DNA from: Phycisphaerae bacterium
GTDB lineage: Bacteria > Planctomycetota > Phycisphaerae > Sedimentisphaerales > Anaerobacaceae
Assembly (NCBI GenBank): GCA_028714855.1
Contig: JAQTLP010000008.1
Span: 1-64,000 of the forward strand
Direction: 5' to 3'
Length of the DNA stretch: 64,000 nucleotides
The position numbers were made by a program, and so were the translations under genes. This document shows, piece after piece, positions 37,918 through 55,303 of this stretch. The notes under the pieces are model-generated. The model saw only the letters and a list, made by a program, of their open reading frames with translations, was not told where the DNA came from and did not search any database. The stretch's first letter is position 1, and each line of letters begins with the position of its first letter.

Positions 37918-38642
37918 AGAAAAGTAAAATTGAATGGACAGAATCGACGTGGAATCCTGTTACGGGATGCTCGGAAATTAGCGCAGGGTGCAAAAACTGC
38001 TATGCCAAGAGAATGGCTCTAAGATTGCAAGCGATGGGTCAGCCGAATTACCGCAACGGCTTTAGAGTAACCTGTCATTCAAAATCGCTCGATTTACCAT
38101 TAAGCTGGAAAAAACCTCAGATGATCTTTGTAAATTCCATGAGCGACCTTTTTCATGTTAAAGTTCCCTGTGAATTTATATCTAAAATTTTCGATGTTAT
38201 GAGCCGGACACAGCAGCACATTTATCAATTCTTAACCAAAAGAGCTGAACGGCTGGCGGAGTTATCAGATTTAATGCCGTGGTCAAAAAACGTATGGGCG
38301 GGAGTTACGGTAGAGGCAACAGAATATAAATACAGGATAGAACTTTTACGACAAACAAAAGCTAATATTAAATTTTTATCTTTAGAACCTTTGCTGGAAG
38401 ATCTCGGGAAATTAGAATTGACCGGGGTTGACTGGGTCATAACAGGCGGAGAATCTGGGCCTGGCGCAAGACCAATAAATGCGGATTGGGTCAGAAATAT
38501 CAGAGAACAGTGCATAGAGCAAAATGTCCCATTTTTCTTTAAACAATGGGGTGGAATAAATAAGAAGAAAAATGGCAGATTATTAGATGGTCAAACATGG
38601 GATGAGATGCCTAAAAAAGCAGTTGAAGTTCTGTGCGCATAA
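37914..38642 (+). CDS. DUF5131/phage Gp37-Gp68 three-Cys-motif protein
   Basis: A 242-residue protein of the DUF5131 (phage Gp37/Gp68) type. The defining cysteines are Cys19, Cys26 and Cys29, in GCSEISAGCKNCYA (C-x6-C-x2-C), which suggests an iron-sulfur or zinc site. Further family blocks are MIFVNSMSDLFH, FLTKRAERL, VWAGVTVE, SLEPLLEDL, WVITGGESGPGARP and FFFKQWGG. A radical-SAM-like fold has been suggested by the cysteine cluster; I cannot test it here. It is translationally coupled to tcmP, is equally AT-rich, and is the third-last gene before the T2SS operon. Homologues occur in phages and mobile regions, which fits the accessory look of this patch. Confidence 0.85.
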   Translation: MKKSKIEWTESTWNPVTGCSEISAGCKNCYAKRMALRLQAMGQPNYRNGFRVTCHSKSLDLPLSWKKPQMIFVNSMSDLFHVKVPCEFISKIFDVMSRTQQHIYQFLTKRAERLAELSDLMPWSKNVWAGVTVEATEYKYRIELLRQTKANIKFLSLEPLLEDLGKLELTGVDWVITGGESGPGARPINADWVRNIREQCIEQNVPFFFKQWGGINKKKNGRLLDGQTWDEMPKKAVEVLCA

Positions 38643-39453: not shown

Positions 39454-39954
39454 TCAATAATAATACTTGAAATCGAGGTCGATGTCCCAGGTGTCTGGCA
39501 GGCCTTTCTTTTTGGTCAGTTTGACCTGCGAACACTGGAGATTGGCCCAGCGAATCTGGACCGTGGAAAGGAATTTGGCGAATTTGGTTATGTCAATGCC
39601 CTTGAGAGTGACCTTGGCACTTTGGCTTTTCTGGCCCGCGGTGGTCAGCATTACTCCGGAACTAAGCCTGTAACCGGACGGCGGGATTCCGCATAAAGCG
39701 GCTGTTTTATCCATGGCATTGGCGTAATCAAATTCAGCGGCGGGGTTATTGGCGTCGGCGAATTTGACCCTGTCAGGGTCGAGAGCCAAAATCTCGGTCA
39801 TTATGTTCTGGCCCTTGTCGTATTGCGATTTTTCAACCTCCCATTTATGCTCGGCGGCAGGCAAAGATACGCCCCAAATAAGCAACGGCCACAAGGCCGC
39901 CAAGGCAGGGGCGAGTATATAATACAGAGCCGGATTCTTGAAAATATCTTTCAT
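39454..39954 (-). CDS. gspM: Type II secretion protein M (GspM-like)
   Basis: The last gene of the T2SS operon. The 166-residue product has one membrane helix (about 10-30) and a small periplasmic domain with ferredoxin-like beta-alpha alternation. That matches GspM, which with GspL forms the inner-membrane platform. Sequence similarity is low, as usual for GspM, and the call leans on size, topology and position directly after gspL (16 bases). A PilO-like protein has the same outline. Confidence 0.6.
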   Translation of the reverse strand: MKDIFKNPALYYILAPALAALWPLLIWGVSLPAAEHKWEVEKSQYDKGQNIMTEILALDPDRVKFADANNPAAEFDYANAMDKTAALCGIPPSGYRLSSGVMLTTAGQKSQSAKVTLKGIDITKFAKFLSTVQIRWANLQCSQVKLTKKKGLPDTWDIDLDFKYYY

Positions 39955-39970
39955 AGTAACTTATCCTTGT

Positions 39971-41413
39971 CTACTTCTTAGGTTCAACAGTTATGCTGAA
40001 ATTATCCCGGCCTCCTTTGGCATCGAGGTTCTGCTGCGTTATGTCCAGGCTGCTTTGCCTGATTGCATCGAACAGCTTGAGCGTGTTTCCCCGGCTGGCG
40101 GTATCGCCTGTAATACGAATGGTTTTGGCGGCAATGGTAATCGAATCTACATTTAAGTTAGTCTGCTCGGCGCATTTGTTAAAGGCCTCGAGCACGAGGG
40201 TCAGTTTAGCGGATATGGCCTCTTCGCCTGTAACGCTTAACAGGCCTTTCCTGACATTTTCGATGCGTCTTAATTCGCCCTCGAGTTTTTTTACAGGGCT
40301 GGTTTTGTCCGGCGGCTTTTTGCCGAACATAACAGCGGCGTATTGTTTTTCGAATTTCTTATAGAGCTGATTGCGGTAACTATTCTGCTGCCACAACTGC
40401 ATCTGGAAATACAATCCCGCGGCGAGCATAAGAACGACCGCGGATATGCTCGAAACTTTCATTGCTTTCTGCAGGCGGACTTTTTTGCCCTGATAGGGGG
40501 AAAAATCGCTGCGGAAATTTACGCTATGGGCTTTTTCCAAATGGGACAAAGCGGCGCCATAAGCAATCACAAAACCAACGGGGCCGGCGCAATCGGCCAA
40601 GGCCTCCGGGGCGGTCGCGGCAGCGGCAATCAAATCTATCGGGCTGACCTCGATGGTGAGCCGATTGCTAAGCTGCGGGCAATCCACGGAGCCGGTGGAA
40701 TCGAAAACTTTGACGCTGTTTACCGGCTTATCGCCCGAAAGTAAAGCGGCGGTCATCGGGACTTCTCTGGCGAGCAGGTCGTTTCTATTCTGTCCGGACC
40801 TGACGAGGAACGTCCGCATAGCCAGCGCTGCCCGCGATTGCGAAAAGGCCAAAAAGTAGCCACTCGAATCTGAAAGGACGCAGAAAAGAGGGTGCGAATC
40901 CGGAGGCAAGGACAGGGTCTGCGAAATAAATCTCGAAAGGCAATTAACATCTGGTTCAATGGTTACGGGGTCGATGTTATTAGTCTGCAAAGCAGTGAGA
41001 ATATCAGACAATTGCTTCTTCTTGGCGGTGAAGACGGTCAGCGACGAGCCGGCGGGACTATCTGAAGTTACTTTGAAAGCTATCGCAAGGTCGGTTATGT
41101 CCATACCGAGAACTTCTTCGGCGTCGAACCTGATGGTCGCAGCGATTTGCTTAGGGTCGTTAAACTTACTGCGGACGCTATGCTGCATAAATATCGAACA
41201 GTCCAGAGCGACAGCGGCCTCGGAGAATTTCCATTCCCTTTTGGTACAGCCCTCGGTGATGAGTCGGGCCAACTCCTGCGGCGTCTGCTGCTGCGTTTCT
41301 TCGACAGCAACACTGAAGCAGCCTAAGACGGCTCTGCCGCTGAGACAAACAACGGTCGCAGAGCTTTTGCTTAAATAAATCCCTAAATAGTTCTGAGTTT
41401 CCACTTCGAGCAA
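39971..41413 (-). CDS. gspL: Type II secretion protein L (GspL/PilM-like)
   Basis: A 480-residue platform protein. Residues 1-300 are an actin-like PilM/GspL cytoplasmic domain (start NYLGIYLSKSSATVV). One transmembrane helix lies at about 318-338, followed by a coiled segment and a periplasmic ferredoxin-like domain (about 400-478). This is the GspL plan, equal to PilM fused to PilN. In the T2SS it links the GspE ATPase to GspM and GspC. It begins 19 bases after the gspK stop. The ATPase-fold residues are degenerate, as usual in GspL. Confidence 0.78.
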   Translation of the reverse strand: MLEVETQNYLGIYLSKSSATVVCLSGRAVLGCFSVAVEETQQQTPQELARLITEGCTKREWKFSEAAVALDCSIFMQHSVRSKFNDPKQIAATIRFDAEEVLGMDITDLAIAFKVTSDSPAGSSLTVFTAKKKQLSDILTALQTNNIDPVTIEPDVNCLSRFISQTLSLPPDSHPLFCVLSDSSGYFLAFSQSRAALAMRTFLVRSGQNRNDLLAREVPMTAALLSGDKPVNSVKVFDSTGSVDCPQLSNRLTIEVSPIDLIAAAATAPEALADCAGPVGFVIAYGAALSHLEKAHSVNFRSDFSPYQGKKVRLQKAMKVSSISAVVLMLAAGLYFQMQLWQQNSYRNQLYKKFEKQYAAVMFGKKPPDKTSPVKKLEGELRRIENVRKGLLSVTGEEAISAKLTLVLEAFNKCAEQTNLNVDSITIAAKTIRITGDTASRGNTLKLFDAIRQSSLDITQQNLDAKGGRDNFSITVEPKK

Positions 41414-41432
41414 ACTCCTAAAAGCCGGCCTT

Positions 41433-42737
41433 TCAGCCGGAGATTACGGCGATTTTTTCCAACTTTTTGCCTTGTTTTGTTATAGCTATAACGGTCGACG
41501 CTTCCGCCACTCCGCTTACCACGGTTATTCTAACAGTGAAAAACGTGCTGGCTGTTGTGATATATTTCTCACATTTTCCTATCGAATCGGAGTACCTAAA
41601 AAGCGTCCTTTTCAAATCTTCTATATCGGTAAAAGGTTTTATTCGTCTACGCTGTATAATTTCTTCGGCGATTTTATCAGCATCACCGCCGAAAGTAAAA
41701 GCAACTTCGAGCACCTGCCGAGGGGCGGTATTAATATTGACCCTGTTCGAAGCCCACAAACCCATATATTTCAGGGCCGATTCTTTTCTGTTCTCACTTA
41801 GTATTGTCGGCATAGCAAGGGTTTCAGTATCAATTAATGAACTATGAAAAATTTTCGCAAAATCGGCACTGTGGACGGAGGCGGGCGCGGTAGTTGTCCG
41901 GACTGTCCGCCTTTGGACGGTTCTTCTACCTTTACGTCCTGTTGACGATACTGTTCTCCTCTCCTCGCTTATTGTTACCGGTTCAAAGTCAAGTTTGAAC
42001 GTTTTTATTTTACCTATCTCCTTCAGCTCCTTTTTTAGCGAATCAACCCTGACACTATTGACATCCATCCACTCGCAGAAAGTTTCGAACCCCGCTGAGG
42101 CTTCGCGATGGACTCTTTCTTCTCCTTCATCGGCAAGCAGCATCCAGCCGAGGGGATATTTCGCATTTTCATCTTCAATTTCAATTCTGACTTTGGCAGA
42201 ACCAATCTCGAATTCAAGCGGCTCGAACACGAACGGCCAAGGCGGACCATACGGGCCGCGCACTATCAGCAAATTAGGGTCATTAAAATCGGTGACACCA
42301 CTAGTATCATCAGCTTCACTGACGTCGTTGATGTCGTTGATGTCGTTGATATCCTTGATGTCACGCTTATCATCGAAGCTCTTGGCTCTGCTGTAAGTCT
42401 CGCCTTCGGCAGCAAACTCTGCCAAAAGTTCCTTGTATTCAACCTCGCTAAGGGTAAATAAATCCGAAAAATCCGGCTCATTCGGACGTTCAATCAATTG
42501 CGGCATATTAACATCCTGCAATTCAGCAAGTGCATACCGCGCCGCCGAGTTACAACCGTAGCGGGCAGCCTGATAATCTACGATATACTGCTCGCGATGC
42601 CGCTGGGCGGCAAGGCGGCTGCTCAAGGTATAACCAAGCGCCGAAAGCATAACCAGCAGCACTAATGTCACCAAAAGCACGATGCCGGGGCGATTTCGAC
42701 GGTCGCTGCAATTATTTAGGCTTTTGTTCCACATCAC
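41433..42737 (-). CDS. gspK: Type II secretion minor pseudopilin K
   Basis: A large minor pseudopilin (434 residues), part of the tip complex of the pseudopilus with I and J. The prepilin-like site is RPG/IVLLVTLVLLVML. The usual Glu at position +5 is missing, which is the mark of GspK. A GspK-type helical domain follows, with VNINTAPRQVLEVAF and a helix-hairpin-helix-like TDIEDLKRTLF. An odd insertion near residues 125-150 is a tripeptide repeat, DINDINDINDV, encoded at about 42319-42369. The start overlaps the gspJ stop by four bases. Confidence 0.85.
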   Translation of the reverse strand: MMWNKSLNNCSDRRNRPGIVLLVTLVLLVMLSALGYTLSSRLAAQRHREQYIVDYQAARYGCNSAARYALAELQDVNMPQLIERPNEPDFSDLFTLSEVEYKELLAEFAAEGETYSRAKSFDDKRDIKDINDINDINDVSEADDTSGVTDFNDPNLLIVRGPYGPPWPFVFEPLEFEIGSAKVRIEIEDENAKYPLGWMLLADEGEERVHREASAGFETFCEWMDVNSVRVDSLKKELKEIGKIKTFKLDFEPVTISEERRTVSSTGRKGRRTVQRRTVRTTTAPASVHSADFAKIFHSSLIDTETLAMPTILSENRKESALKYMGLWASNRVNINTAPRQVLEVAFTFGGDADKIAEEIIQRRRIKPFTDIEDLKRTLFRYSDSIGKCEKYITTASTFFTVRITVVSGVAEASTVIAITKQGKKLEKIAVISG

Positions 42738-43453
42738 CTTTTTTTCTCTTCACCTTCTTTTTTTGCAAATACGAATTTGTTCGCCCTGGTTCGGTCAATC
42801 GCCATATTTCTTACGATTTTTTCATTCTCCGGTATATCGAGGACGCCGGTCAGGGTCTTAAACGGCTCGGCAAAAGAAATAGTTACCACAATGCCGGGAG
42901 GCAACGAATCGCTCGTCCAGTCATCCTTAAGTTCTTCACCAACGGGGACCTGTATCTTAAAAAAAGTAACGCCGGTGCAAATCGGCACAAAGAGCTCTCT
43001 CTCCCAATCTTCCTTCTGCTCGTCAAGCAGCTTATCTTCCATCGCAATTCCACTATGACTGCGATATAAGACAAGACCGTTAGCATCGTTATCATAGTTT
43101 GTCTGCCAAACGATTTCTTCAAATGTTCGTTTTTGGTTTCTGTCGTTATAAATAGTCTTTAAAATCGTAAGGCGGGCGGTCGAGAAACCGTTTTCAAATT
43201 TATTCTCCACAGTAATTTTCGTATCGGACGGCGCAGCTGTCCTGTCGAGGTCTTCGGTAATGCGCTGCAGAACTTCGAAGGGCAGCCTGGAACTATCAAG
43301 CTTGCGCGTAATCGCAGCGGCGCTGGTTTCCGCCCGGTTGTAAATACCCAGGACCGCGACTAAAACCATCGCCCCTATCGCCATCGCCACAAGCACCTCA
43401 GCCAGCGAAAAACCGCTGCGACGACCGTATATTTTATAAGAAATAATCTTCAT
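42734..43453 (-). CDS. gspJ: Type II secretion minor pseudopilin J
   Basis: A 239-residue pseudopilin. Prepilin peptidase site RSG/FSLAEVLVAMAIGAMV with Glu at +5 and a long hydrophobic helix. The rest is the globular domain expected for GspJ (residues about 40-239) and ends in a basic tail, KKEGEEKKR. Its position between I and K supports the letter. The start has only a weak ribosome binding site, so translation may depend on coupling. Confidence 0.8.
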   Translation of the reverse strand: MKIISYKIYGRRSGFSLAEVLVAMAIGAMVLVAVLGIYNRAETSAAAITRKLDSSRLPFEVLQRITEDLDRTAAPSDTKITVENKFENGFSTARLTILKTIYNDRNQKRTFEEIVWQTNYDNDANGLVLYRSHSGIAMEDKLLDEQKEDWERELFVPICTGVTFFKIQVPVGEELKDDWTSDSLPPGIVVTISFAEPFKTLTGVLDIPENEKIVRNMAIDRTRANKFVFAKKEGEEKKR

Positions 43454-43475
43454 ACCAATGAAAACGAATTTATTA

Positions 43476-44135
43476 TCAGGGACACTCTTTCAAGTATCTA
43501 ATAATCTCCTCAGTGGTCGGCCTGCCGGGAGTAGCGGCCTTCATAAGACACCTAACACTTTCACAGAAAGGCAAGGTGTCACAATCCACATCCGACTCGG
43601 ACAGCGACTCGTTAAGCTCGGCTTTCAACAAGTTCGGATCGAACGGTTCATTTGGCTCGCTTATATCGTTCGGCTCATTCAACTCAGACAGCCCAGATAT
43701 CTTTTGTTTAAGCATTTCAAGCAATTGCTCCTTCGTCAAACTGGTTAACCAGTGCGTCAGCTCAATCGTCTGCGCCTCGCCTTCCACATCAGTATATTCA
43801 GCAGAGCAAATTCCTCTGACCCATAACTGCTCCTGGCCCATTACCGCCGGTTCATAAAACATCTCAACGGCAGTCTGCCATTTAATTTCTGGATACTTGT
43901 CGCTGCTGCCATACTCAACCGTCTCCTCAACCGCATCCTTGGACAAAAGGGTTTCCATATTATCTCGCGCGACCTCAAAGGCCTGCATACGCAGCGACGA
44001 ATCTGCGGCCGAGGCCATACAGCGGTTTATAACAACCAGCACACTCGAACTGATAAGCGCGAGTATAATCAAAGCAGTGACAACTTCCACCAGACTAAAA
44101 GCCGGTAATAAAATTTGTTTAGAACGGCACTTCAT
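43476..44135 (-). CDS. gspI: Type II secretion minor pseudopilin I
   Basis: A 219-residue pseudopilin with the site LPA/FSLVEVVTALIILALI: Glu at +5 is present, but the residue before the cut is Ala instead of the usual Gly. The C-terminal domain carries an Asn-Glu-Pro-Asn-rich insertion, SELNEPNDISEPNEPFDPN (about 142-160), of the kind seen in other proteins of this window. The assignment to I, rather than another minor pseudopilin, rests on gene order. It overlaps gspH by 17 bases. Confidence 0.72.
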   Translation of the reverse strand: MKCRSKQILLPAFSLVEVVTALIILALISSSVLVVINRCMASAADSSLRMQAFEVARDNMETLLSKDAVEETVEYGSSDKYPEIKWQTAVEMFYEPAVMGQEQLWVRGICSAEYTDVEGEAQTIELTHWLTSLTKEQLLEMLKQKISGLSELNEPNDISEPNEPFDPNLLKAELNESLSESDVDCDTLPFCESVRCLMKAATPGRPTTEEIIRYLKECP

Positions 44136-44721
44136 CTTGTCTTTTCGGCATTAAAGGTTCGACATCTCCTTCCCGCAATATAACAATTCTGCTCAGGCGG
44201 TTAACTACTACCGAATACGGCTGTTCGTCCCCATCGAGCAGAACAATCTTTCCGCCGGCCTGCCAACCTGTGCGACCTGCGCGAAAAAACGCCTTTTGAT
44301 GCTCTTCGTCGGTGCTGACAAGGTCGTCGAACAGAACAGAAACAATCCTGCAATTCGCACCAAAATTATTTTTTACGATAATCTCTTCCTCCAGAACATC
44401 CGACGGCAACTGGGGCGAAGTAATCTGGCGAAGCGTATAGCTCTGCTCTGTAATGTCAATAATAACTTCGTATCTTTTATCGCTTTCAGCCGCGGCGCTG
44501 GCAGCCATCTGCATTGTCGAGACAAGCTCACCGGCCTGAACCTTAAAGGTACTTTTTCTAAGCCACCCTGAAAGATTCGTAACTGCTAAAAGCACAAACA
44601 GAGAAATTATCAAAACCACCACCACCAGCTCAGTAAACGTAAAGCCGCGTCTGGTATTACGTATTGTGTATTGCCCGCGCAGGGCGCAATCAGTATGCAT
44701 CAGTGCTGTACAAGTCGGCAT
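44119..44721 (-). CDS. gspH: Type II secretion minor pseudopilin H
   Basis: A 200-residue pseudopilin with site RRG/FTFTELVVVVLIISLF (Glu at +5). I place the start at the ATG 44721 because GGTGAGG lies six bases upstream; this start lies inside the end of gspG. A GTG at 44754 and an ATG at 44700 are weaker choices. The globular part has the GspH beta-sandwich look, with LDGDEQPYSVVVNRLSR near the end. It follows gspG and precedes gspI, in standard order. Confidence 0.8.
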   Translation of the reverse strand: MPTCTALMHTDCALRGQYTIRNTRRGFTFTELVVVVLIISLFVLLAVTNLSGWLRKSTFKVQAGELVSTMQMAASAAAESDKRYEVIIDITEQSYTLRQITSPQLPSDVLEEEIIVKNNFGANCRIVSVLFDDLVSTDEEHQKAFFRAGRTGWQAGGKIVLLDGDEQPYSVVVNRLSRIVILREGDVEPLMPKRQDEVPF

Positions 44722-45130
44722 CGTTATCCTCACCACCCTCTTCACCATCAGCACCCAGACTTTTGATTACAAACGACTTTCCGCTTTCCGGGGAGAGCTC
44801 ATAAATAAAATCATAGCCCCAGCCGTCTCTGGGTAATTCAGTGGTTTCCAAATAACCGCCCGGCTCGTACCTTATAACATCGCTCGGCTGCTCAACAAGC
44901 GCCATAAGCCCTTCCTCTTCGGTTGGAAGCCGGCCGGTGTCCATTTTGAATTGAGTTACCGCGTTATGAAGAATTTTTAAATTGGCCTTTGTGGTTGTAA
45001 CACGTGCCTGGTCTATCTTCGTCGCCACTTTTGTAACTACCAAAGTGGCAAGCAAACCGATGATAATCAGCATAGCCATCAGTTCAATCATCGTAAAACC
45101 TAATCTATTTTTTCTTTTTCTTTTTTTCAT
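44690..45130 (-). CDS. gspG: Type II secretion major pseudopilin G
   Basis: The main subunit of the pseudopilus, 146 residues. Prepilin site RLG/FTMIELMAMLIIIGLL with Glu at +5. The signature core (TGRLPTEEEGLMAL) and the C-terminal calcium-binding loop SLGADGEEGGEDNDAD are typical. After cleavage, about 133 residues remain. AGGAG lies twelve bases before the ATG. High expression relative to the rest of the operon is expected from its role, but no separate promoter was seen in the 54-base gap after gspF. Confidence 0.93.
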   Translation of the reverse strand: MKKRKRKNRLGFTMIELMAMLIIIGLLATLVVTKVATKIDQARVTTTKANLKILHNAVTQFKMDTGRLPTEEEGLMALVEQPSDVIRYEPGGYLETTELPRDGWGYDFIYELSPESGKSFVIKSLGADGEEGGEDNDADLYSTDAY

Positions 45131-45184
45131 CTTTCTACAATGCTCCTAAAATAAATTCCCAGTTAGAGGGAACTTGCAACAGTG

Positions 45185-46402
45185 TTAAAATTTACCCGCC
45201 GAAACTTCCAGAATCGGCAGTATTGTCGCATAAGCAATCAAACCTATTATTGCAGCCATAACAATTATAATAAGCGGCTCAACCGCGGCGCTCAATCTCT
45301 CAATAACCACATCAGTTGAAGATTCGAGGTTTTCACTGATATCCTTAAGCATTTTTTCCAACTCGCCGCTTTTTTCTCCGACAGCCACCATATGAGCAAT
45401 CGCAGGGTCGATGACGCCGCTGTCTCTGAGCGGGGTAGCAATATCAGCACCGGCAAGAATCCTCTCACGTGCCTGCTGAACGGCGCCTCTCATAATACTG
45501 TTGCCGGTAACCTCCGACACAACCCGAAGAGACTCAGCCATAGCAAGTCCCGAGCCAAGAAGCGTCGAAAGTGTCGAGGCAAAACGTGAGACAACGCGCT
45601 GTTTTACAAGAGGACCAAACAAAGGCAGGGACAGCAGGAGTTTATCCCGCAGTAAAGCACCCCGCTGTGTTTTCAGAAAACGCTTCAGGCCCCAGATGAT
45701 TCCAACAACCACGGCAATCACAACAAACAGCCACCAACTCGTCAATATATAGCTTACACCCATCAAGCCCCTGGTAACCAGGGGCAGCTCCTGCCCTGTT
45801 CTTGCAATCTGCTCGGCAATTTTCGGGATAACCGTTGTTGTCAAAACCAGAACAGCCGCAATACAAAACAAAATCAGGACAATCGGATATATCATCGCCG
45901 TCATTACCTTCGATTCGACCTTCTGCCGCTTCTCCATAAACTTGGCAATGGTCGAAAGACTCTGGCCAAGAGAGCCGGTCACCTCGCCAACGCGAACCAT
46001 ACTTACATATATAACATCAAAATAATCGCTATAATCGCCCAAGGCATCGGCGAAAGATTCACCCGTGATAACCCGGTCGCGAATGTCGGTAATAGCGTTT
46101 TTGAACCGCACATCGGATATTTGCAAAGTAAGAACAGAAAGCGCTTCGGTCAGCTTAATTCCAGAATTAAGCAGTGTGGTCATTTGCTTGGTAAAATCAA
46201 GTATCCTGCTTTTGCTGCTTCCGGCGAAAACGGAAAACAGCGCCGCTCTTTTCTCGGAAGCAGAGCCGGCCTCTGTGATTGAAGTCGGGTGAACGCTTCG
46301 CACCCTCAACTGTTTTCGCGCAGCATAGGGGCTTTCGGCGGTGATTGCGCCTTTGACTTTTTTGCCGTTTGCCGACACTGCTGTATATTCATACCTCGGC
46401 AT
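45185..46402 (-). CDS. gspF: Type II secretion inner-membrane protein F
   Basis: A 405-residue polytopic protein of the GspF/PilC family. Two repeated cytoplasmic helical domains (about 65-190 and 265-390) are each followed by membrane helices: about 165-190, 210-235 and 375-400. The start PRYEYTAVSANGKKVKG is the family signature. It couples the GspE ATPase to the pseudopilus. It begins 12 bases after the gspE stop. Confidence 0.93.
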   Translation of the reverse strand: MPRYEYTAVSANGKKVKGAITAESPYAARKQLRVRSVHPTSITEAGSASEKRAALFSVFAGSSKSRILDFTKQMTTLLNSGIKLTEALSVLTLQISDVRFKNAITDIRDRVITGESFADALGDYSDYFDVIYVSMVRVGEVTGSLGQSLSTIAKFMEKRQKVESKVMTAMIYPIVLILFCIAAVLVLTTTVIPKIAEQIARTGQELPLVTRGLMGVSYILTSWWLFVVIAVVVGIIWGLKRFLKTQRGALLRDKLLLSLPLFGPLVKQRVVSRFASTLSTLLGSGLAMAESLRVVSEVTGNSIMRGAVQQARERILAGADIATPLRDSGVIDPAIAHMVAVGEKSGELEKMLKDISENLESSTDVVIERLSAAVEPLIIIVMAAIIGLIAYATILPILEVSAGKF

Positions 46403-46414
46403 TGCCTGTGTCCT

Positions 46415-48163
46415 CTAAATCACGTCTGACTGTGTCACCCTCAAGACTTCAGCAATAGTTGTTATCCCGGCGAGAACCTTTCGAGTGCCATCCATTCGCA
46501 GGGTTTGCAGTCCCGCGTTAATGGCGACCTTCTTTATAGCACCGGCGGTTTCCTTTTTGTATATCATTTCCTGAATTTCCTCATTAATCATCATCAGCTC
46601 GTAGACACCGGTTCTGCCGCGATAGCCGGTTTGAAAACACTTATCACAACCCTTTCCGATAAAGAATTTTGCGCCGTTGCGATCACTTATATTACCAAGA
46701 CCAAGCTCTCTGAGCTCATGGGGTTTAGGCTCATGCTGCTCTTTACAGTCCGGGCACACTTTCCGCACCAATCGCTGCGCTATTATGGCAATCAACGATG
46801 AGCTTGCCAGATAAGGTTCAACGCCCAAGTCTAAAAGGCGGCTGACGGCACCAGCAGAATCATTAGTGTGAACCGTACTGAAAACCAAATGCCCAGTCAG
46901 GGAAGATTGTATCGCCATTCTCGCTGTTTCGACATCACGAACTTCGCCGACCATTATAACATCGGGGTCCTGACGAAGGACGTGCCTAAGCGACGTGACA
47001 AAAGTCATACCTTTTTTACTGGCAACCTGAATCTGACTGATTCCTTCCAATTGATATTCAATAGGGTCTTCTATGGTTATAACATTTTTCTCCGCCGAAT
47101 TAATCCTGTTAAGACAGGCGTAAAGAGTGGTGCTTTTTCCGCTGCCGGTGGGGCCTGTTACGAAAATAACGCCGTGCGAACGGGTCAGCAGCGAATCGAA
47201 CTTTTTCAAATCGTCTTCACACAGGCCCAGCTCATCCAATTTAAAAAGGCCGGTGCTTTTGTCCAACAGCCGGAGGACGCTGCGCTCACCGAAGCTGGTC
47301 GGCACGGTGCTGATACGCAAATCGATTTCGCGCTCGCCCAGACGGACACTGCAGCGGCCATCCTGAGGCATACGGCGTTCGGCAATATCCATTCCAGCCA
47401 TCACTTTTATACGGGATATAATCAGCGGCAGGACATTTCTGTTCAAGCTCAAAACATCATATAAAATACCGTCGATGCGGTAACGAATCTGAATCTTTGC
47501 CTCGTAAGGGTGAACGTGGATATCGCTGGCCCGCAACTGCAGCGCGCGAAAAAGAATATCATTAACCAGCCTGATAACCGGCGGACGATTAACCACGTCA
47601 AGAAGGTCATCGGAAGTGCCCACTTCGTCGATAAGCTGGTCGATATTCTGCGAATCAAGCTCCTCGGCCACCTCTTCAATGACAGTTGTCTTCTGCTCGT
47701 AGGCAACATCTATCGCGGCGGTAATTGCAGCACGGGTGGCAACCGCAGGCCTGACGGGCATGCCCGTCATCTTCGAAACATTATCCAGGACATCAGAATC
47801 CAAGGGTTTGGACAAAACTACGGTAAGCTCTTTGTCGTCGGCCTTCGTTCTTATCCCGACAAGATAATGCTGCTGGGCGTAGGTCGCAGGGATGGATTCT
47901 ATGAATTCGGCCAGCACAGCCTTTGCGGATACCTCATCTAAAAATTCCCACCCAAGGGCAGCGGCAAAGAGCTTCAAAACCGCCGACTCTGTAAAATACG
48001 GACAGCCGAGCAAAAGCTCATCGAGCCGGGATTTTCCGTCGCTGTTGGCTTTGAGAAACTCGGCCAATTGCTCAGCGTCAATGAGACCCGTCCGCTTGGC
48101 AGTTTGTATCAATAATTCCTTCATAATATTACAATGGCAGGTGGCGCAAGCCATGCTACGCAT
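46415..48163 (-). CDS. gspE: Type II secretion ATPase E
   Basis: The cytoplasmic hexameric ATPase that drives pseudopilus assembly. The N-terminal domain (about 14-160) binds GspL. Walker A GPTGSGKST lies at 337-345, the Asp box ITIEDPIEY at 362-370, Walker B DVIMVGEV at 401-408 and the His box TGHLVFSTVHT at 423-433. The tetracysteine zinc finger is complete (Cys470, 473, 506 and 509). At 582 residues it is normal in size. The first ATG has AGG seven bases upstream; Met14 (MKELLIQT) is a possible alternative start. Confidence 0.94.
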   Translation of the reverse strand: MRSMACATCHCNIMKELLIQTAKRTGLIDAEQLAEFLKANSDGKSRLDELLLGCPYFTESAVLKLFAAALGWEFLDEVSAKAVLAEFIESIPATYAQQHYLVGIRTKADDKELTVVLSKPLDSDVLDNVSKMTGMPVRPAVATRAAITAAIDVAYEQKTTVIEEVAEELDSQNIDQLIDEVGTSDDLLDVVNRPPVIRLVNDILFRALQLRASDIHVHPYEAKIQIRYRIDGILYDVLSLNRNVLPLIISRIKVMAGMDIAERRMPQDGRCSVRLGEREIDLRISTVPTSFGERSVLRLLDKSTGLFKLDELGLCEDDLKKFDSLLTRSHGVIFVTGPTGSGKSTTLYACLNRINSAEKNVITIEDPIEYQLEGISQIQVASKKGMTFVTSLRHVLRQDPDVIMVGEVRDVETARMAIQSSLTGHLVFSTVHTNDSAGAVSRLLDLGVEPYLASSSLIAIIAQRLVRKVCPDCKEQHEPKPHELRELGLGNISDRNGAKFFIGKGCDKCFQTGYRGRTGVYELMMINEEIQEMIYKKETAGAIKKVAINAGLQTLRMDGTRKVLAGITTIAEVLRVTQSDVI

Positions 48164-48226
48164 TTATGTGCCTGCCCGATTAAGGCAGCCACATAGCGCT
48201 TAGTGTTGCCCATAATACCCCTCTTC

Positions 48227-51200
48227 CTAATCTGATTCAAGGATATGTAACGGGTCTATCGGCTCAGGCTCTATACCGGGCCAATCCTGATGTCTCTGGA
48301 ATCTTTCCTCAAAGTCCTCAACCGCACCCCGGTTCCTGTCTGATATTCTCTCCAAATCCGGCAATCCTGCAGCCGTTTCACTCGGCCTTAAGATATTTGC
48401 CCTAACAAATACATACAGCTTCGTTTGTGAGCTGCTAGTGCTTATTCTTCTGAAAAGCCCGCCGGCAATCGGGATGTCACCAAGAAAAGGTACTTTCCAG
48501 TTATCCTTAGTCTGTCCTATCGTTGTTATGCCTCCGAGAATTATCGTGCTGTCATCGGGCACGGTAACGATTGTCTCGACATTGTTCTCACTTTTGTCAG
48601 GCGGCGGATCATTCTGTCCAATCCCGCCTTCCGGAGCAATCTGACTCGAACGCTGCATTTTTATTTCAAGGCGAAGCAAATCGCCTTCACTAATATGAGG
48701 CGTAATATCAAGGTTGATACCCGACGGGAACTGGTCAAAGGTATAAGATGTTTGTACAACTCCTTCGTTCGGCTGAGTCTGCGCCTGTCTGGACACGTAT
48801 ATAGTGTTCGTAGTGTCGATGTGACCTTTCTCATTGTCATTAACGAGTATCTTAGGTCTGGCAAGGACCCGGCCGTAGCCCTTTGACTGCATTAACTCCA
48901 ACAGCATCTGAATATGACGGCCCGCATAAAAACCCTGGGCAGGCGACGCTTCTCCCAGAATTGAAGTTGCCTCCCCCACCCTATTCGAGGGGAAAGGCGA
49001 TAGAGCACTCGTGCCAGTAGCAAGTTTCTGCATTATTCCGCCAGGGAGCATTTCCGGGAACTTGGAGACCAACTGTAAATCGTAATCGAAGGAATCAGAC
49101 TCAGTAATTTCAACGAGCATCGCATCCAACAGCACCTGCGGCCTGCGCTTGTCCAACTGTTTTATTAAACTGCCTATCCATTCCTGATTTTTTTTGCTGG
49201 CATAGACGAGGATTGAAAAGGTGTTCTCATCGGGAACGATGATAATGTCTTCTTCTGTTTTCTTTATTGTCTGCTGGATTTTTCCCTCTTTATCCTTAAT
49301 GGTTTCCTGAATAAATTTCTGCAGAACTTCCGCCAAATCCTCGGGGGCCTGGTTCTCGAGCGCATAAATTACATAAGGTATCGCCTGCCTAAGAGTTTCG
49401 CTGTCCACGTAGCTGATAATCGTGGCTATCTGAACGTGCTGCTCAGGCGTGGCATTTACCAAAAGCGAATTCGTTGATTCAATTATCACCACCTGCGGCT
49501 GCTCCACAAGAGGCTCCACTTCAGAAGTTGCAGCAGGCGCGGCGGCCGGGGCGGCTCCCGGAGCGGGGGACCTACCGACAGTAATTTTCTTTCCCTCGGC
49601 TGTCTTGTCGCCGATTATGCCAAGCTCTCCGAGCTTCTTTACCACCTCATCGGCCCCGACATACTGGATATCGTATAATCGCATAGTCCGAAGGTCCTGC
49701 TGTTCCACATCAAGGGAATCTATCAAAGATTCAACAACAACCAACTGCTCTTCAAGGCCTATCATCAGGACGCGGTTCGTTCTTTCGTCGGCATCCAGAT
49801 AGACCGTCGTTTGGGCCAAAGCAGCCGGCGCAGCGGGTGCTGGTGCGGGCCTGCCTGCCCTGATGCGCCTCGACGGCGGCTGTGCCGCCACAGGGGCCGC
49901 GACAGTAATTGATATAGTTCCTAACTGCTCAGCAAGAGTTTTGATTTTCGGAGCGAGCGTCGCCGCCATCGTGTATTTTAACTGCCTGAACCTGAATTGT
50001 TTCGGCGCACCCGGCTGGTCAACCATATCCAATAGCTCCTCTACACGCGCCATACGGTAGGCATATTCGGTAACGATAAGCGTGCCCGTTTCGGGAATCG
50101 GCGAGATGTTTGCGCCGAGCTTCATACTGGTCAAAAGATTCTGCGCACTACTTGTATCTATATACTTCAGCTTGAAAACATGCGTTATAACTATATCTCC
50201 AAGCTGAACCTCACCCGCCTCTGGCTGCAAAGCAGGGTCAATACCCAATGCGTCAGCGGCAGGAACAATGGTTACAAGGTTGCCCTTGCGAGCCATCACA
50301 AAACCTCTGAATCTCAGCACAGATTCGAGCAAAGGATATAAATCTTTCACCTTGATAGGTCCCTGAAGCTTCAGCGAAACTTCGCCTCTGACCTGCGTTT
50401 CATCGTACATATAGTCTAATTGCAAATACTTGCCAACCAAATCCACCAAATCTATGATGTTAAGCTTCGCCGGCAAATCCAACTCAAGCATTTCATTACC
50501 ATTGGCAATAGGCGCCGGTTCGTATGAACGGACTTTTTCAAGAGCTGGTTCCGATTCCGGTTCCTCGACAGTTAAATTCGGTTCGGCGGACTGTGGTTCT
50601 TCAGTAATCTGCGGCGATGCTTCTTCTGTTTGCTCCAAATCAGCGAAAGGATCGTTCGGTTCATCCGTCTTCGCTATCGATTCCTTCTTCGCCGCCACTA
50701 CAGAGGATGGGACGCTAGACAGGTTTGCATCTGGTACTCCCGCTGCTGCTTGTTCAGCAGGCGCAGGGGCAACAGCAGCTGGCTGACTTGTCTGTCTGGC
50801 GTGCTCCTCAGCAGCTATTTTCTCGGTCTCGGCAAGCGAATTAAGAAGTTTATCTAAAAGCTCATTCGGTTCGTTGACGTCCATAGCTTCTTGAGCGACA
50901 GGTTCAGGAGAAGCAGCTATTCTTTTAAGCTCATCCTCAGCTCTTTTAAGCTCGGCCTCCGTGTCTGTTTTCGTTTCCGCTCCACCGGCCTTGACCAACT
51001 CAGCCGATTTGTCCGGCTCGACTGCTTGAGGGAATAGTCCCCCGCTGCTGAGGAGTCGCCCGATTGCGGAAATAATCCTTTCAAGCTGTCTTGGCTCGGC
51101 AACGATTATCACATTATTATCGTGAACGTCTATAATTGCTTTGGCTTTTGCCGTACTGCTCGGCGGACTAACAAATGTCCCTATAGATATATCATTAACC

Positions 51201-51631
51201 TCGGTTGCTATTTGCTCATTGGGGGGAAACTGCGATGGGCCCACCGCAGTATATACTTTTATTTCAAAAAGCCCGTTAGCATCAACAAGCCCCAAAATAG
51301 CGCTCGCTTTAATCAAGTCCTCAGACGGAGCAGTTACCAAAAGCACATTGGCACCGGGAAGCTGTGAAACCGTACCGACCCCGGCTTCGGCAAGATATTT
51401 TTTGCCCTGCTCAGCGGATATGTATTTTAAGGAAAAAACCCTGTATCGCTCAACACCGGAAGCCGCCCCCTGCTCCGCAGCAAAAAGATAACTGCCGCTT
51501 AGAATGACAGTTACTGCACAGATAAAAATAAAAACCCTTCGGGCTACGGCATGGCATTTCGCCCTGACGAGTGCTTTCTCACAACATTGAAACGGCATAA
51601 GCCATTCTAGGGGTTGCCGATCTGCCTTCAT
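48227..51631 (-). CDS. gspD: Type II secretion outer-membrane secretin D
   Basis: The outer-membrane channel. At 1134 residues it is far longer than typical GspD (about 650). The start follows GGAG (GGAGTGAGTATATG). A signal helix at about 33-52 leads to N-terminal ring domains separated by low-complexity linkers: a Glu/Pro/Ala-rich one (about 235-365, with NEPN and DEPN text), a Pro/Ala-rich one (about 590-610) and another near 680-700. The secretin core (about 850-1080) carries the family block VPFLGDIPIAGGLFR. The C-terminal end may hold a pilotin-binding segment. The linkers probably lengthen the periplasmic part of the channel; this is inference. Confidence 0.92.
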   Translation of the reverse strand: MKADRQPLEWLMPFQCCEKALVRAKCHAVARRVFIFICAVTVILSGSYLFAAEQGAASGVERYRVFSLKYISAEQGKKYLAEAGVGTVSQLPGANVLLVTAPSEDLIKASAILGLVDANGLFEIKVYTAVGPSQFPPNEQIATEVNDISIGTFVSPPSSTAKAKAIIDVHDNNVIIVAEPRQLERIISAIGRLLSSGGLFPQAVEPDKSAELVKAGGAETKTDTEAELKRAEDELKRIAASPEPVAQEAMDVNEPNELLDKLLNSLAETEKIAAEEHARQTSQPAAVAPAPAEQAAAGVPDANLSSVPSSVVAAKKESIAKTDEPNDPFADLEQTEEASPQITEEPQSAEPNLTVEEPESEPALEKVRSYEPAPIANGNEMLELDLPAKLNIIDLVDLVGKYLQLDYMYDETQVRGEVSLKLQGPIKVKDLYPLLESVLRFRGFVMARKGNLVTIVPAADALGIDPALQPEAGEVQLGDIVITHVFKLKYIDTSSAQNLLTSMKLGANISPIPETGTLIVTEYAYRMARVEELLDMVDQPGAPKQFRFRQLKYTMAATLAPKIKTLAEQLGTISITVAAPVAAQPPSRRIRAGRPAPAPAAPAALAQTTVYLDADERTNRVLMIGLEEQLVVVESLIDSLDVEQQDLRTMRLYDIQYVGADEVVKKLGELGIIGDKTAEGKKITVGRSPAPGAAPAAAPAATSEVEPLVEQPQVVIIESTNSLLVNATPEQHVQIATIISYVDSETLRQAIPYVIYALENQAPEDLAEVLQKFIQETIKDKEGKIQQTIKKTEEDIIIVPDENTFSILVYASKKNQEWIGSLIKQLDKRRPQVLLDAMLVEITESDSFDYDLQLVSKFPEMLPGGIMQKLATGTSALSPFPSNRVGEATSILGEASPAQGFYAGRHIQMLLELMQSKGYGRVLARPKILVNDNEKGHIDTTNTIYVSRQAQTQPNEGVVQTSYTFDQFPSGINLDITPHISEGDLLRLEIKMQRSSQIAPEGGIGQNDPPPDKSENNVETIVTVPDDSTIILGGITTIGQTKDNWKVPFLGDIPIAGGLFRRISTSSSQTKLYVFVRANILRPSETAAGLPDLERISDRNRGAVEDFEERFQRHQDWPGIEPEPIDPLHILESD

Positions 51632-52092
51632 ATACTCACTCCGTAGTTCGCAAAACTAAAAATTTACAATCCATTTACTGCTTATCGGACTTGTCCGGCA
51701 AGTCGGACATCGTGCCGAAAAAGCCGCTAAAATAAGTCCTTTTCTCACAAGCCTTTACGTAAATATCTGTGTAAGTTTCCAACTTTGACTGCCTCAAATA
51801 CTCTCTTCTACATCAATTCAGACACTTAAACGGCCTAAAAGTTCCTTCTTTTCAGCTAAAAATCCGCTGATTACTCCCTTTTTACGGACCCAACCACCCC
51901 CCATTGCAATTGGAAAGCCGCAAAACAGGCTCCCTCTCTATCGGCAAAAATCGTAAAACAATGAACAAATAAGCAAGACTTTGGTATGTCTTAAATCAGG
52001 TGTAACTTCTCGGGAAAAGTGGAATTAAGCAGATGCTTTCTTCGCTTCCTGTGGACAGATGATATCGGTCTTGGCCCCTCGGCGGACTGGAA
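51632..52092. other. Gap between gspC and gspD with one hairpin
   Basis: This 461-base gap is the longest inside the T2SS operon. GACTTG (51688-51693) pairs with CAAGTC (51699-51704) across TCCGG, about 60 bases above the gspD start. No riboswitch or small gene was recognised. The gap is large enough for an internal promoter, but I could not settle on one. Confidence 0.5.
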
Positions 52093-52983
52093 TTATCCCT
52101 GCCCTGTAATATTCGCATCATTTAAGGCCGGTTCATTCAAGTTTGCATCCCTCTCAGCGCTGCTATTCCCAGCTCGATCCGGCTCCTGCTGAACGTTTTT
52201 CAACCTTCGGCCCAAACGGCCCAGCCCCCTCGCTTCTTTGGTGCTTATACGCATATTTTCAAGGTCGGAGACAGTCTCTCTTTTCGCTGCCGCTATTTCC
52301 TCAGCTTCAACATTTGCCGGAACAGCTTTTTGCCTGGCTCGGCCGGCATTCGATATCTCTCTCTCAACAGCTTCCGTTTCTTTGGCGTTTATCTGAACTT
52401 CGAGACCTGTCTCTGGATTATCACCGGTAATGCGGCCGTCAAATGATGTGCTCGCTTTAAGGAGGCTTCTTTGTGCCGGCCTTTCCGCCACAAGTTCGAA
52501 AGTATTTTTGCCATCTCGAACAACTATGAGACCATCTTTAATCTGCTCAACAACTAAATGGCCTATCTGGCTGGATTGTCTTACCCAGTACAGGCCTTTG
52601 CCCGGCTCATCAATCAATGCAAGTGACAATTCCGGCTGCAACACATGACGGCTGGTACCAATAAGCCTGAATTTGGCTGCAACGGGCCCCGCAGGTCTGG
52701 GCTGCCTTTTTGCCTCAGTCGTCGAAGGTGTGGGCTTTGGCTTGGGGGGAGGATTTAGATACAACGCAAAAGCCTCTGCCTGTTTTACAAGCGGCGAAAT
52801 TTCGCGCCGGCCATCCTCGATTTTATCGCCTCTGGCCTCCTTGAATTTCTCTATCACACCGGCAGATTTCAGAAATTGTTCTGTTTGCTTATCGCCGCGA
52901 AACCCAAAAGCCGCAGGCAAAACAAACAAAAAAACCGCTAAAACCACCGCTATAATACTTGTTATCCGCAATGTCTTTATCAT
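52093..52983 (-). CDS. gspC: Type II secretion protein C (GspC-like)
   Basis: A 296-residue inner-membrane protein. One N-terminal helix (about 8-28) is followed by a Pro/Lys-rich linker and a homology-region-like beta domain (about 95-170, FRLIGTSR...LVVRDGKNTFEL), as in GspC, which contacts the secretin. The C-terminal 120 residues are charged and predicted helical, with no PDZ domain. It ends with Asn-rich NEPALNDANI. The call leans on its position directly upstream of gspD and the single-helix plan; sequence identity to known GspC would be low. Confidence 0.65.
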   Translation of the reverse strand: MIKTLRITSIIAVVLAVFLFVLPAAFGFRGDKQTEQFLKSAGVIEKFKEARGDKIEDGRREISPLVKQAEAFALYLNPPPKPKPTPSTTEAKRQPRPAGPVAAKFRLIGTSRHVLQPELSLALIDEPGKGLYWVRQSSQIGHLVVEQIKDGLIVVRDGKNTFELVAERPAQRSLLKASTSFDGRITGDNPETGLEVQINAKETEAVEREISNAGRARQKAVPANVEAEEIAAAKRETVSDLENMRISTKEARGLGRLGRRLKNVQQEPDRAGNSSAERDANLNEPALNDANITGQG

Positions 52984-53074
52984 ATTCGATATTCCAGTTC
53001 TCTGTACTATTTGACATTACCGACAACATTTGGTTCCCGCTAATACTGTTTTTTCTTAAAAAAAGGGCGTTTTT

Positions 53075-53983
53075 TTACTGAACAGCGTTCAGTATCTCAT
53101 CAAGCTGCGGGGCCTCGCCCTCCCATAATTTGACCGCCGCGCCATCGGCCACAACCACTACCAAAGGGGTTTGAATATACCACTTCTTGCTTGTATCGAG
53201 CTTTCCCTGCAAACAAGGGGTATCAACGGGGACAATGTCCTCTTTCCCTGAAGCATACGGAGGAATCTCAATAAACGCGAACCGTATCGAGTCCTCGTTT
53301 CCGGCCATATCGCGGGCCATCCGGTCGTATAGCGGAATTGCTTCATGACAAGTTTCACATTCGTTACTATACAACATTACGATGACAATATTCGACTTCA
53401 GCGAACCTGCAATATCGATGTGCTTGAGCATTGGCCATTCGGTTTGACCAATCCACTCGGCGGGCCGGACTACTTCGTATTTGTCCGTTTTATCCGGCGG
53501 CTTATTGAAAACAAGAACCGGCATTATGATACCGAAAGCTATAAATGTCGGTATAGCAACACCGAAGAAGTGCGCTGCACTCGGCCAGGGCGGCGGCAGG
53601 AGCTTCAGCCCCTTAGGGCGGAAAATAATCAGCCCAAGAAAAATGGGTATATCAATCACCGCAAAGGTTATCCACGGATTAACCTTGACCCTGCCGAAAC
53701 AGCCGCAGGATTCCGCCCCGATGAGTCCTTTTTGCAGCGTTACCAATATAAATAACCCGAAAGCCAGCACGGCAATCATCCACGCCGCCTTGCGGAACAG
53801 TCCGGAGGCAAGCCATATTCCCAGTCCCAGTTCCAACGGTATCTGGAATACAAAGAACAACCAGGATTCCCAGAAACCTTTGCTGATAATCGGTTCGGTA
53901 AGCAATTGATGGATTTTCAGCACGGCTGCAACTATAAGGACTAATCCTGTCACGACCGTGATGATTCGGTTAGCTACTTTCAT
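53075..53983 (-). CDS. MauE/DoxX-like membrane protein with thioredoxin-like domain
   Basis: A 302-residue fusion. The N-terminal half (about 1-155) has four membrane helices and the MauE/DoxX-type motif ESCGCFGR (Cys93, Cys95). The C-terminal half (about 185-300) is a thioredoxin-like domain outside the membrane with ECETCHEA (Cys209, Cys212). This layout suggests that electrons pass across the membrane to a periplasmic dithiol, similar in idea to DsbD or VKOR systems. The order DUF1573, this gene, T2SS operon suggests a link to folding of secreted proteins; that is inference. It has 78 bases upstream to the DUF1573 gene and 91 downstream to gspC. Confidence 0.72.
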   Translation of the reverse strand: MKVANRIITVVTGLVLIVAAVLKIHQLLTEPIISKGFWESWLFFVFQIPLELGLGIWLASGLFRKAAWMIAVLAFGLFILVTLQKGLIGAESCGCFGRVKVNPWITFAVIDIPIFLGLIIFRPKGLKLLPPPWPSAAHFFGVAIPTFIAFGIIMPVLVFNKPPDKTDKYEVVRPAEWIGQTEWPMLKHIDIAGSLKSNIVIVMLYSNECETCHEAIPLYDRMARDMAGNEDSIRFAFIEIPPYASGKEDIVPVDTPCLQGKLDTSKKWYIQTPLVVVVADGAAVKLWEGEAPQLDEILNAVQ

Positions 53984-54061
53984 ACTCGAATTGCCAAGCC
54001 AGCCACAGCGGGATAGCCACGCAGCATCCTGATTTTAAGTATCTGCTGATTAGGTCCAAAT

Positions 54062-55246
54062 TCAATCAGTAGAGGACGGTTTCTCTGCTGCAGGAGACGA
54101 CTTTTCTGTAACTGGGGATGGCTTCTCTGTAATTGGAGGCGATTTCTCTGCTTTTTTCAAATAGAACATTCTGCAGGCAATTTTCAGTTTTTCGCCGCCT
54201 TTTATATTTACAAAAAACGTGTCCGTGAAAAATCCATTTTGACCTTTTTCACCGGTCGGAGGTGTTATCTCCAGCTCAAACTTATAGCGATTATTATCAA
54301 CCTTTTCCTGTTTCAAAACCTTTATAGTGCCTTGCTGCGATGACGTCGACTCAATCTCGAATTCATCGTCGTAGTTGTTGATTACCCAGACCTCCCTTGT
54401 CACCGACTTTTCCAAATTGGCCTTGTAGACTATAATCGACGGCGGAGTCACCTTAAACATCGGCAAAACTTCAAAAGGAATAGAAATCATAGGACTTTCC
54501 GGATGAGTAAGGGTAATTTCAAGACGCCCGCCGGATTCTTCCCTCAATTTTTCCACATCGACCTTCGGCTTAAGAACAAATTCCGTCGCTCTCACCGGAG
54601 AACTATAATCAGCAGTAATAGCCCTTTCGAGCGGTTTAAGCCGCCCAACCGACTTGACCTCTTTTATCGAAAACGGCTGGCCGTCAAGACTTTTAATCGT
54701 AATCGCCGGGCAGCCGGCGTTCTCCTTGTTAAGGACAAGGTCAAGTTTCTTCGGGAGGAAGCTAATTTTCGATACAACCTCGGCCGTTATGATTAATTCG
54801 ACCCTGGGATTTGCCTGGTCGTTACTGGACACATGCAGAGTTTTCCTTACCGACCCTGTCTGAGAGCTTGCATGATATTCCACTTTCAAGGTCCCTGTTT
54901 CGTTCGGTGCGTATTCCTTTTTCTCCAGCGTATATGGCGTGCAGCCGCAGGTCTTGCTAACCTCTGTTATTTTCAACAAGCCTTTCCCTGTATTTGTAAA
55001 TTTAAACTCACAAACATTTTTCGACCCCGGGGCGATGTTTCCGAAATCGTTAACCACGTTTTCAAACGTAATTGCCGGCTTATCTTTAACAGCCGCAGGA
55101 GTGCTTTCGTCCTTTGCAGAACCAGCCGCCGTTGCTGGCGTTTTTAACTCGGTTTTAGATTCCTCTGCCGCCACGGCCCAGCTAATCTGCAAAAAGCAGA
55201 CAGAAACAACCATAATGACAGTTAAAATCAACCAATTGCGTTTCAT
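54062..55246 (-). CDS. DUF1573-domain exported protein
   Basis: A 394-residue exported protein. Start ATG at 55246 with GAGATGAGA upstream; an in-frame TTG at 55264 is less likely. The signal peptide spans about 1-27. Residues 60-145 form a DUF1573 domain, an immunoglobulin-like fold, with the core FENVVNDFGNI, FKFTNTGKGLL and the marker KTCGCTPY (Cys100, Cys102). A second, diverged Ig-like region continues to about 370. The tail is Pro/Ser/Glu-rich with three near-copies of ITEKPSP. DUF1573 is common in Bacteroidetes and Planctomycetes and its role is not known. The cysteine pair could be a substrate of the adjacent MauE-thioredoxin protein. Confidence 0.8.
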   Translation of the reverse strand: MKRNWLILTVIMVVSVCFLQISWAVAAEESKTELKTPATAAGSAKDESTPAAVKDKPAITFENVVNDFGNIAPGSKNVCEFKFTNTGKGLLKITEVSKTCGCTPYTLEKKEYAPNETGTLKVEYHASSQTGSVRKTLHVSSNDQANPRVELIITAEVVSKISFLPKKLDLVLNKENAGCPAITIKSLDGQPFSIKEVKSVGRLKPLERAITADYSSPVRATEFVLKPKVDVEKLREESGGRLEITLTHPESPMISIPFEVLPMFKVTPPSIIVYKANLEKSVTREVWVINNYDDEFEIESTSSQQGTIKVLKQEKVDNNRYKFELEITPPTGEKGQNGFFTDTFFVNIKGGEKLKIACRMFYLKKAEKSPPITEKPSPVTEKSSPAAEKPSSTD

Positions 55247-55303
55247 AATTCTCATCTCCAACAAGATTACGATATAAATTACAATTCGTTCGCGGAAACG
55301 CTT

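Follow-up and report, generated by a model that had tools for sequence, protein, structure and literature searches.

The question raised by this locus is what a DUF1573 protein and a MauE-thioredoxin membrane protein are doing at the head of a type II secretion system (T2SS) operon. The locus was found in a 64,000-nucleotide stretch (hereafter the window) of a Phycisphaerae bacterium of the order Sedimentisphaerales (genome G000; contig JAQTLP010000008.1 of assembly GCA_028714855.1), where a run of 13 minus-strand genes occupied 39454-55264: DUF1573, MauE-thioredoxin, and GspC, D, E, F, G, H, I, J, K, L, and M. A same-strand DUF1573–MauE-thioredoxin–GspC-to-GspM run had been described in an initial annotation of the window, and every one of its genes was recovered at its place, on the minus strand. 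As a genomic pattern, linkage of the T2SS to a redox module whose partner can be exchanged was well supported; a T2SS operon headed, in the window, by a periplasmic thiol-redox module for the formation or repair of disulfides in T2SS clients is given about even chances.

The DUF1573–GspC neighborhood and its slot

The neighborhood survey was applied to 118 genomes of the same order. Profile matches were obtained for PF07610 in 110 genomes, GspC of the window type in 100, GspE-type ATPase in 118, the UshA-like cytochrome in 60 (59 after removal of G109, with matches within a 977-aa frame alone), and MauE-thioredoxin in 54 (53 after removal of fragment G007, a 147-aa frame with the MauE part alone). 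Of the 110 genomes with a PF07610 match, 108 had a usable DUF1573 place, and GspE-type ATPase places were kept out of the linkage count. DUF1573 was counted as linked when it lay no more than 6 kb upstream of GspC and on its strand, and this arrangement was present in 69 of the 96 genomes with both genes placed. By this survey the gene order in the window exceeds a chance arrangement; the absence of a conserved neighborhood in relatives, named beforehand as the outcome that would speak against a joint unit, did not arise.

The slot between DUF1573 and GspC in these 69 genomes contained (i) a tetraheme cytochrome in 39, (ii) MauE-thioredoxin in three, namely this genome, its congener G027, and one relative, and (iii) neither in 27 (including G008, with opposite-strand frames in between). 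A redox protein at this position, as initially annotated, was accordingly present in 42 of the 69, but it was usually the tetraheme cytochrome and rarely MauE. Because 27 linked genomes had neither redox gene, the association of DUF1573 with the T2SS forms the core, and its redox partner is what can be exchanged. MauE-thioredoxin as the usual T2SS partner was also considered and rejected, given its three slots and its unlinked orthologues with no T2SS gene in their short flanks.

The gaps had medians of 13 nt for DUF1573–cytochrome (39/40 within 150 nt), 42.5 nt for cytochrome–GspC (44/46), 167 nt for DUF1573–GspC with no slot gene (12/28), and 248 nt for GspC–GspD (24/73). As a control, one of three tested types of divergent glycosyltransferase was found beside DUF1573 in 26 of the 54 loci with enough sequence. 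Gene-by-gene reading covered 101 loci of 99 genomes (unlabelled frames of at least 110 aa shown; the eight loci L095 to L102 left out), and in the linked loci no third kind of same-strand gene of at least 110 aa was seen in the slot; opposite-strand frames were present in G008 and G026. The 27 unlinked genomes included assembly or gene-model effects, in that G065, G097, and G107 each had a contig-end DUF1573 fragment followed by the cytochrome. G038 and G074 (loci L070 and L086) displayed DUF1573–cytochrome–GspD–GspE with no GspC recognized in between and a GspC-profile match elsewhere, and G031, which the 6-kb rule left unlinked, had intervening frames on both strands, four on the same strand and three on the opposite one. 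The other unlinked genomes, above all those of families f2 and f4, look like real losses; the unlinked DUF1573 genes of f2 and f4 (about 425 aa) had neighbors that were housekeeping-like by eye.

The two redox partners rarely occurred together: among the 118 genomes, both were present in four (G046, G063, G082, and G098), the cytochrome alone in 55, MauE-thioredoxin alone in 49, and neither in 10 (Fisher 4e-18, kinship ignored). On a tree of 88 genomes from joined GspC, GspD, GspE, and DUF1573 rows, cytochrome presence changed at least seven times and MauE-thioredoxin presence 13 times. Seven independent contrasts could be drawn, which on average gave 6.6 opposite changes, 0 in the same direction, and 0.4 with no difference; in 131 of the 200 pairings all seven contrasts were opposite, and p had a median of 0.016 (range 0.016-0.125).

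The T2SS–redox module looks restricted to this order. Class-wide linkage was tried and rejected: the GspC profile matched 22 of the 150 genomes of the class, and 21 of these belong to the order. The best match per genome of a full-length DUF1573 profile had E 7.5e-107 or better in the 22 matching order genomes and 5e-42 at best outside the order, where 54 genomes had a match. None of 20 outside-order DUF1573 loci (the best match of each of the 20 top-scoring of these 54 genomes) was T2SS-linked when the window Gsp proteins were used as queries; L198 had one GspE-like frame at its edge, and L203 and L213 were short. In L213, a UshA-like gene lay several kb away from DUF1573, on the other strand, and no T2SS gene was recognized; the DUF1573–cytochrome pair may also exist apart from secretion.

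Cysteine motifs of DUF1573 and its two partners

The DUF1573 protein matched PF07610 (E 7e-23; 80.9 bits, gathering threshold 26.1) and was the only such match in its genome (2.3 Mb, 98% complete). Its start had been placed at 55246, an in-frame ATG that is likely the true start, but the open reading frame opens at TTG 55264. Among 82 aligned DUF1573 rows, 24-64% identical to the window protein, two were too short at the site, and the cysteine pair was kept in all 80 scored copies: CxC in 58, CC in 21, and CxxC in one copy of G080, with C106 invariant in the alignment. The annotated CxC pair is CGC in the window protein but is not strict across relatives; strict CxC, for which a fixed-region pattern had counted 54/77, was rejected on the alignment count. 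The CC variant was seen solely in cytochrome-bearing genomes (17 genomes). By motif, the first cysteine of CGC corresponds to the selenocysteine (Sec) site of published UGC relatives. Selenoprotein tables in three papers (PMC2398784, PMC9312934, and PMC13188914) contain DUF1573 proteins with UxC or UGC and UshA-like proteins with CxU; the Cys/Sec comparison was made by motif. This Cys/Sec exchange is the best evidence that the DUF1573 and UshA-like pairs are redox-active.

A lipobox-like motif was detected by a simple pattern in 59 of 77 full DUF1573 copies, and the lipobox cysteine was not present in this genome or in congener G027; the protein here, having no lipobox motif, is probably a soluble periplasmic one. 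The DUF1573 model (mean pLDDT 86.4, pTM 0.68) had strands readable as three beta-sandwich domains, and the first domain matched a Porphyromonas protein without assigned function (Z 14.8), VesB (12.5), and HYDIN (11.4), and more weakly PapD-type chaperones (Z about 9 to 10); Foldseek returned mainly multi-domain Ig, cilium, and cadherin chains with low TM-scores. Tandem second or third DUF1573 copies, with a median gap of 22 nt, were observed at the T2SS operon head in L066, L069, L074, L087, L159, L163, L164, L171, L173, and L189.

The slot cytochrome of relatives was roughly 460 aa with a Cytochrome_C554 part, and its best match was NF041198 (UshA_like_PCGU; 155-185 bits in the four tested, under the cut-off of 275). 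It harbored an N-terminal-proximal PCGC in 46 of 47 full copies and four CxxCH motifs in 40 of them (three in the other seven), and it gave weak matches to decaheme cytochrome families. NF041198 matches above cut-off occurred in two of the 118 genomes (G068:C11 and G082:C190), neither being the T2SS slot. The cytochrome assembly family PF01578 was present in 105 of the 118 genomes, its matches here presumably being unable to separate HemX-like from CcsA-like genes.

The MauE-thioredoxin protein was the single match of its profile in the genome, and the annotated fusion with CxC and CxxC was borne out by a PF07291 match (E 1.5e-7; 32.2 bits, gathering threshold 27), CGC and CETC motifs, and a thioredoxin fold. 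No Pfam thioredoxin match was obtained in this protein, and the domain (about residues 176-302) was recognized by the fold of the model, with Z 11.3 to Etrx2 and 11.2 to CcmG; its closest folds included CcmG, DsbE, and ResA (Z 10 to 11), and a sequence search of solved structures gave one weak thioredoxin (E 0.059). The model was built from five sequences (mean pLDDT 75.5, part of the CGC loop <50), and a periplasmic thioredoxin domain would in it place the CGC loop on the same side. VKOR (PF07884) had no match in this protein or its genome; a match was found in nine of the 118 order genomes and none in the other 109, and therefore another thiol oxidase is plausible in the order (DsbB and DsbD/CcdA not searched).

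MauE-thioredoxin also adjoined a DUF1573 gene in G063 (8 nt; a more distant DUF1573) and G004 (39 nt), with no T2SS gene recognized within the 10-14 kb read; this pairing apart from T2SS is an independent sign of joint work. One weak GspF-like frame lay beside MauE-thioredoxin in L042, and unlinked MauE orthologues were repeatedly flanked by genes that we take to be SDR-, RmuC-, and RecJ-like.

Proposed role and rival explanations

Gene order, tight gaps, the invariant cysteine pair, and the alternation of partners are all consistent with a unit for thiol-redox chemistry at the T2SS. Its likeliest role, with roughly even chances, is to form or repair disulfides in periplasmic T2SS clients, and a structural helper role of DUF1573 is the main rival, at clearly lower probability. 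DUF1573, in the periplasm near GspC/GspD, would exchange disulfides with T2SS clients or T2SS subunits, and its cysteine pair would be reset either by the cytochrome, towards the respiratory chain, or by MauE-thioredoxin, with electrons running from the thioredoxin CxxC to the MauE CGC and perhaps on to quinone, as in VKOR-thioredoxin fusions. In this genus the MauE gene occupies the slot and adjoins that of its proposed partner DUF1573. The fuller version, a dedicated T2SS redox accessory with DUF1573 at GspC/GspD passing electrons to a tetraheme cytochrome or a VKOR-like MauE-thioredoxin that were repeatedly interchanged, is a tentative proposal that we would not yet favor.

Several observations weigh against a redox role at the T2SS: (i) GspC and GspG had no cysteines and GspD had N-terminal ones alone (seven and nine were present in GspI and GspL, respectively); (ii) those 27 linked genomes had no redox gene in the slot; (iii) DUF1573 of families f2 and f4 was mostly encoded apart from the T2SS, with linkage in 2 of 14 placed genomes; (iv) unlinked MauE-thioredoxin genes had no T2SS neighbor in short flanks; and (v) the contrast test was borderline, given its p range, and a GspC-only tree was poorly resolved, with three supported contrasts and p 0.25. 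Lifestyle (large respiring versus small genomes), and not a shared job, may lie behind the mutual exclusion of cytochrome and MauE.

The best surviving rival, in our judgment unlikely although a serious contender, is that DUF1573 helps the T2SS structurally or in its assembly (as a secretin pilotin or a PapD-like periplasmic chaperone), the redox genes being passengers or maintaining its stabilizing disulfide. This would suit the Ig/PapD-like fold predicted for the first DUF1573 domain, the lipobox-like motif of most full copies, the adjacency of DUF1573 to GspC even with no redox gene between, and the family scans, in which no scanned operon protein was named a pilotin. However, the cysteine pair in every scored copy and Sec at the motif in relatives argue for catalysis, the lipobox cysteine is missing from this genome and its congener, and DUF1573 occurs also without an adjoining T2SS.

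Less probable still is a module for surface electron transfer or cytochrome maturation, in which the T2SS exports the cytochrome and DUF1573, and MauE-thioredoxin acts as a CcmG/ResA-like reductant. Multiheme cytochromes exported by a T2SS are known from elsewhere, and both the Cytochrome_C554 part with weak decaheme matches and the CcmG-, DsbE-, and ResA-like fold of the thioredoxin domain agree with such a module; that fold match is generic, however, and 49 genomes, this one included, had MauE-thioredoxin without such a cytochrome, and therefore MauE is not there to mature it. An old frozen gene order with no joint function is very improbable: one ancestral event could explain the linkage because all linked cases seen fall in one order, and few f2 and f4 genomes show it, but gene order and short gaps were kept despite the low DUF1573 identity, the divergent glycosyltransferase side was kept in just 26 of 54 loci, and the slot is taken by either of two unrelated redox genes.

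Since a cysteine-pair protein and one of two rarely co-occurring electron-handling proteins often lead the T2SS genes, protein export in this group of sediment Planctomycetota is suggested to be tied to thiol (disulfide) chemistry. If so, T2SS export can carry its own thiol-redox unit, and disulfide handling would be built into protein export with a choice of respiration or quinone wiring. DUF1573 is without known function, and the T2SS with two alternative redox partners offers it a first testable role. Of the Planctomycetota orders compared in PMC11131199, Sedimentisphaerales is reported to have the largest number of glycoside hydrolase and polysaccharide lyase types per genome.

Operon layout and comparison with known systems

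The complete C-to-M set initially annotated was supported to different degrees (Table 1). GspE (643.5 bits to TIGR02533, cut-off 630.25) and GspG (130 bits to TIGR01710, cut-off 88.85) scored above their curated cut-offs, but GspD (345.3 bits to TIGR02517, slightly under 351.35) and GspF (363.6 bits, cut-off 424) fell under theirs, and GspC and GspH to GspM were assigned by weak matches, prepilin motif, or position. GspD contained PF00263 (E 3e-36), five Secretin_N stretches, and an N0 domain, i.e., a secretin with T2SS-type N domains. The window contained no prepilin peptidase gene, as had been reported; the sole PF06750 (A24_N) match of the genome was on another contig (G000:C7:100348; E 2.5e-35).

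Table 1. Genes and cysteine motifs of the T2SS operon in the window
Feature	Position	Strand	Basis
DUF1573 protein, 400 aa from TTG	54062..55264	-	PF07610; N-terminal signal-like helix; three Ig/PapD-like domains
DUF1573 cysteine pair C106-G-C108 (CGC, residues 106-108)	54941..54949	-	motif
MauE-thioredoxin membrane protein, 302 aa	53075..53983	-	MauE part of four helices, then a fifth helix and a thioredoxin-like domain at the C-terminus
MauE CGC motif (C93, C95; residues 93-95)	53699..53707	-	loop preceding fourth helix
Thioredoxin-like CETC motif (C209, C212; residues 209-212)	53348..53359	-	motif
GspC-like protein	52093..52983	-	weak NCBIfam GspC match; aligned with 23 relatives; no Cys
GspD secretin, 1134 aa	48227..51631	-	profile matches
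GspE ATPase	46415..48163	-	above curated cut-off
GspF inner membrane protein	45185..46402	-	best match, under cut-off
GspG major pseudopilin	44690..45130	-	above curated cut-off
GspH-like minor pseudopilin	44119..44754	-	prepilin N-terminal motif
GspI-like minor pseudopilin	43476..44135	-	position and N-terminus; no Pfam match
GspJ-like minor pseudopilin	42734..43453	-	N_methyl
GspK-like protein	41433..42737	-	weak T2SSK match
GspL-like protein	39971..41413	-	weak T2SSL match
GspM-like protein	39454..39954	-	position alone; no family match

The intergenic gaps were 78 nt (DUF1573–MauE), 91 nt (MauE–GspC), 461 nt (GspC–GspD), and 63 nt (GspD–GspE). Judged from these gaps, a single transcript is plausible, and the 461-nt gap ahead of gspD leaves room for a second promoter; promoter-like sites (8 versus 4.9 in shuffles, sd 2.4) and terminator-like sites (8 versus 4.5, sd 2.4) were little above shuffles. 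In G000, eight GspE/PilB-type ATPase matches had E <= 1e-100 among the best 12 candidates scored, and 2 to 12 such matches per genome were found across the 118 genomes.

Two plus-strand regions flanked the operon. At 36814-38642, mostly within a low-GC stretch (36001-38000; 0.367), a gene encoding a GMT-like winged-helix domain (PF22560) overlapped a DUF5131 gene by a few bases, and the pair looks like an acquired two-gene cassette. At 55490-57109, a divergent membrane protein gene adjoined DUF1573; it had no Pfam match and was glycosyltransferase-like by eye, and the congener has a copy (L082). At this divergent position beside DUF1573, relatives frequently carried a GT2 plus PMT_2-type pair (e.g., L064:9311-12495), which may form a protein glycosylation unit close to the T2SS.

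In the literature searched, mentions of DUF1573 were mostly in selenoprotein reviews. No co-mention of DUF1573 and type II secretion was found there (subscription papers not covered), and titles and abstract openings among the non-subscription papers listed, planctomycete and Sedimentisphaerales secretion included, gave no T2SS link to a MauE, thioredoxin, disulfide, multiheme, or UshA-like redox accessory.

The locus was compared with four known systems. VKOR-thioredoxin fusions have a four-helix membrane part, an extra helix, a C-terminal thioredoxin domain, and a loop cysteine pair, all of which the modeled protein here appears to share, but it belongs to the MauE family. UshA-like (seleno)proteins (NF041198) resemble the slot protein of relatives, which had CGC at the selenoprotein CxU and a multiheme C-terminal part, although the slot proteins scored under the family cut-off. 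OS_HP2/DUF1573 (seleno)proteins (NF041425, PF07610) have their published UGC at the place of CGC here, while the protein here had three domains, T2SS linkage, Cys instead of Sec, and 53.9 bits against the curated NF041425 cut-off of 100. The type II secretion system (Gsp) itself was matched in the order of the C-to-M genes, with the prepilin peptidase elsewhere in the genome, and differed in that the operon here was headed by DUF1573 and a redox gene.

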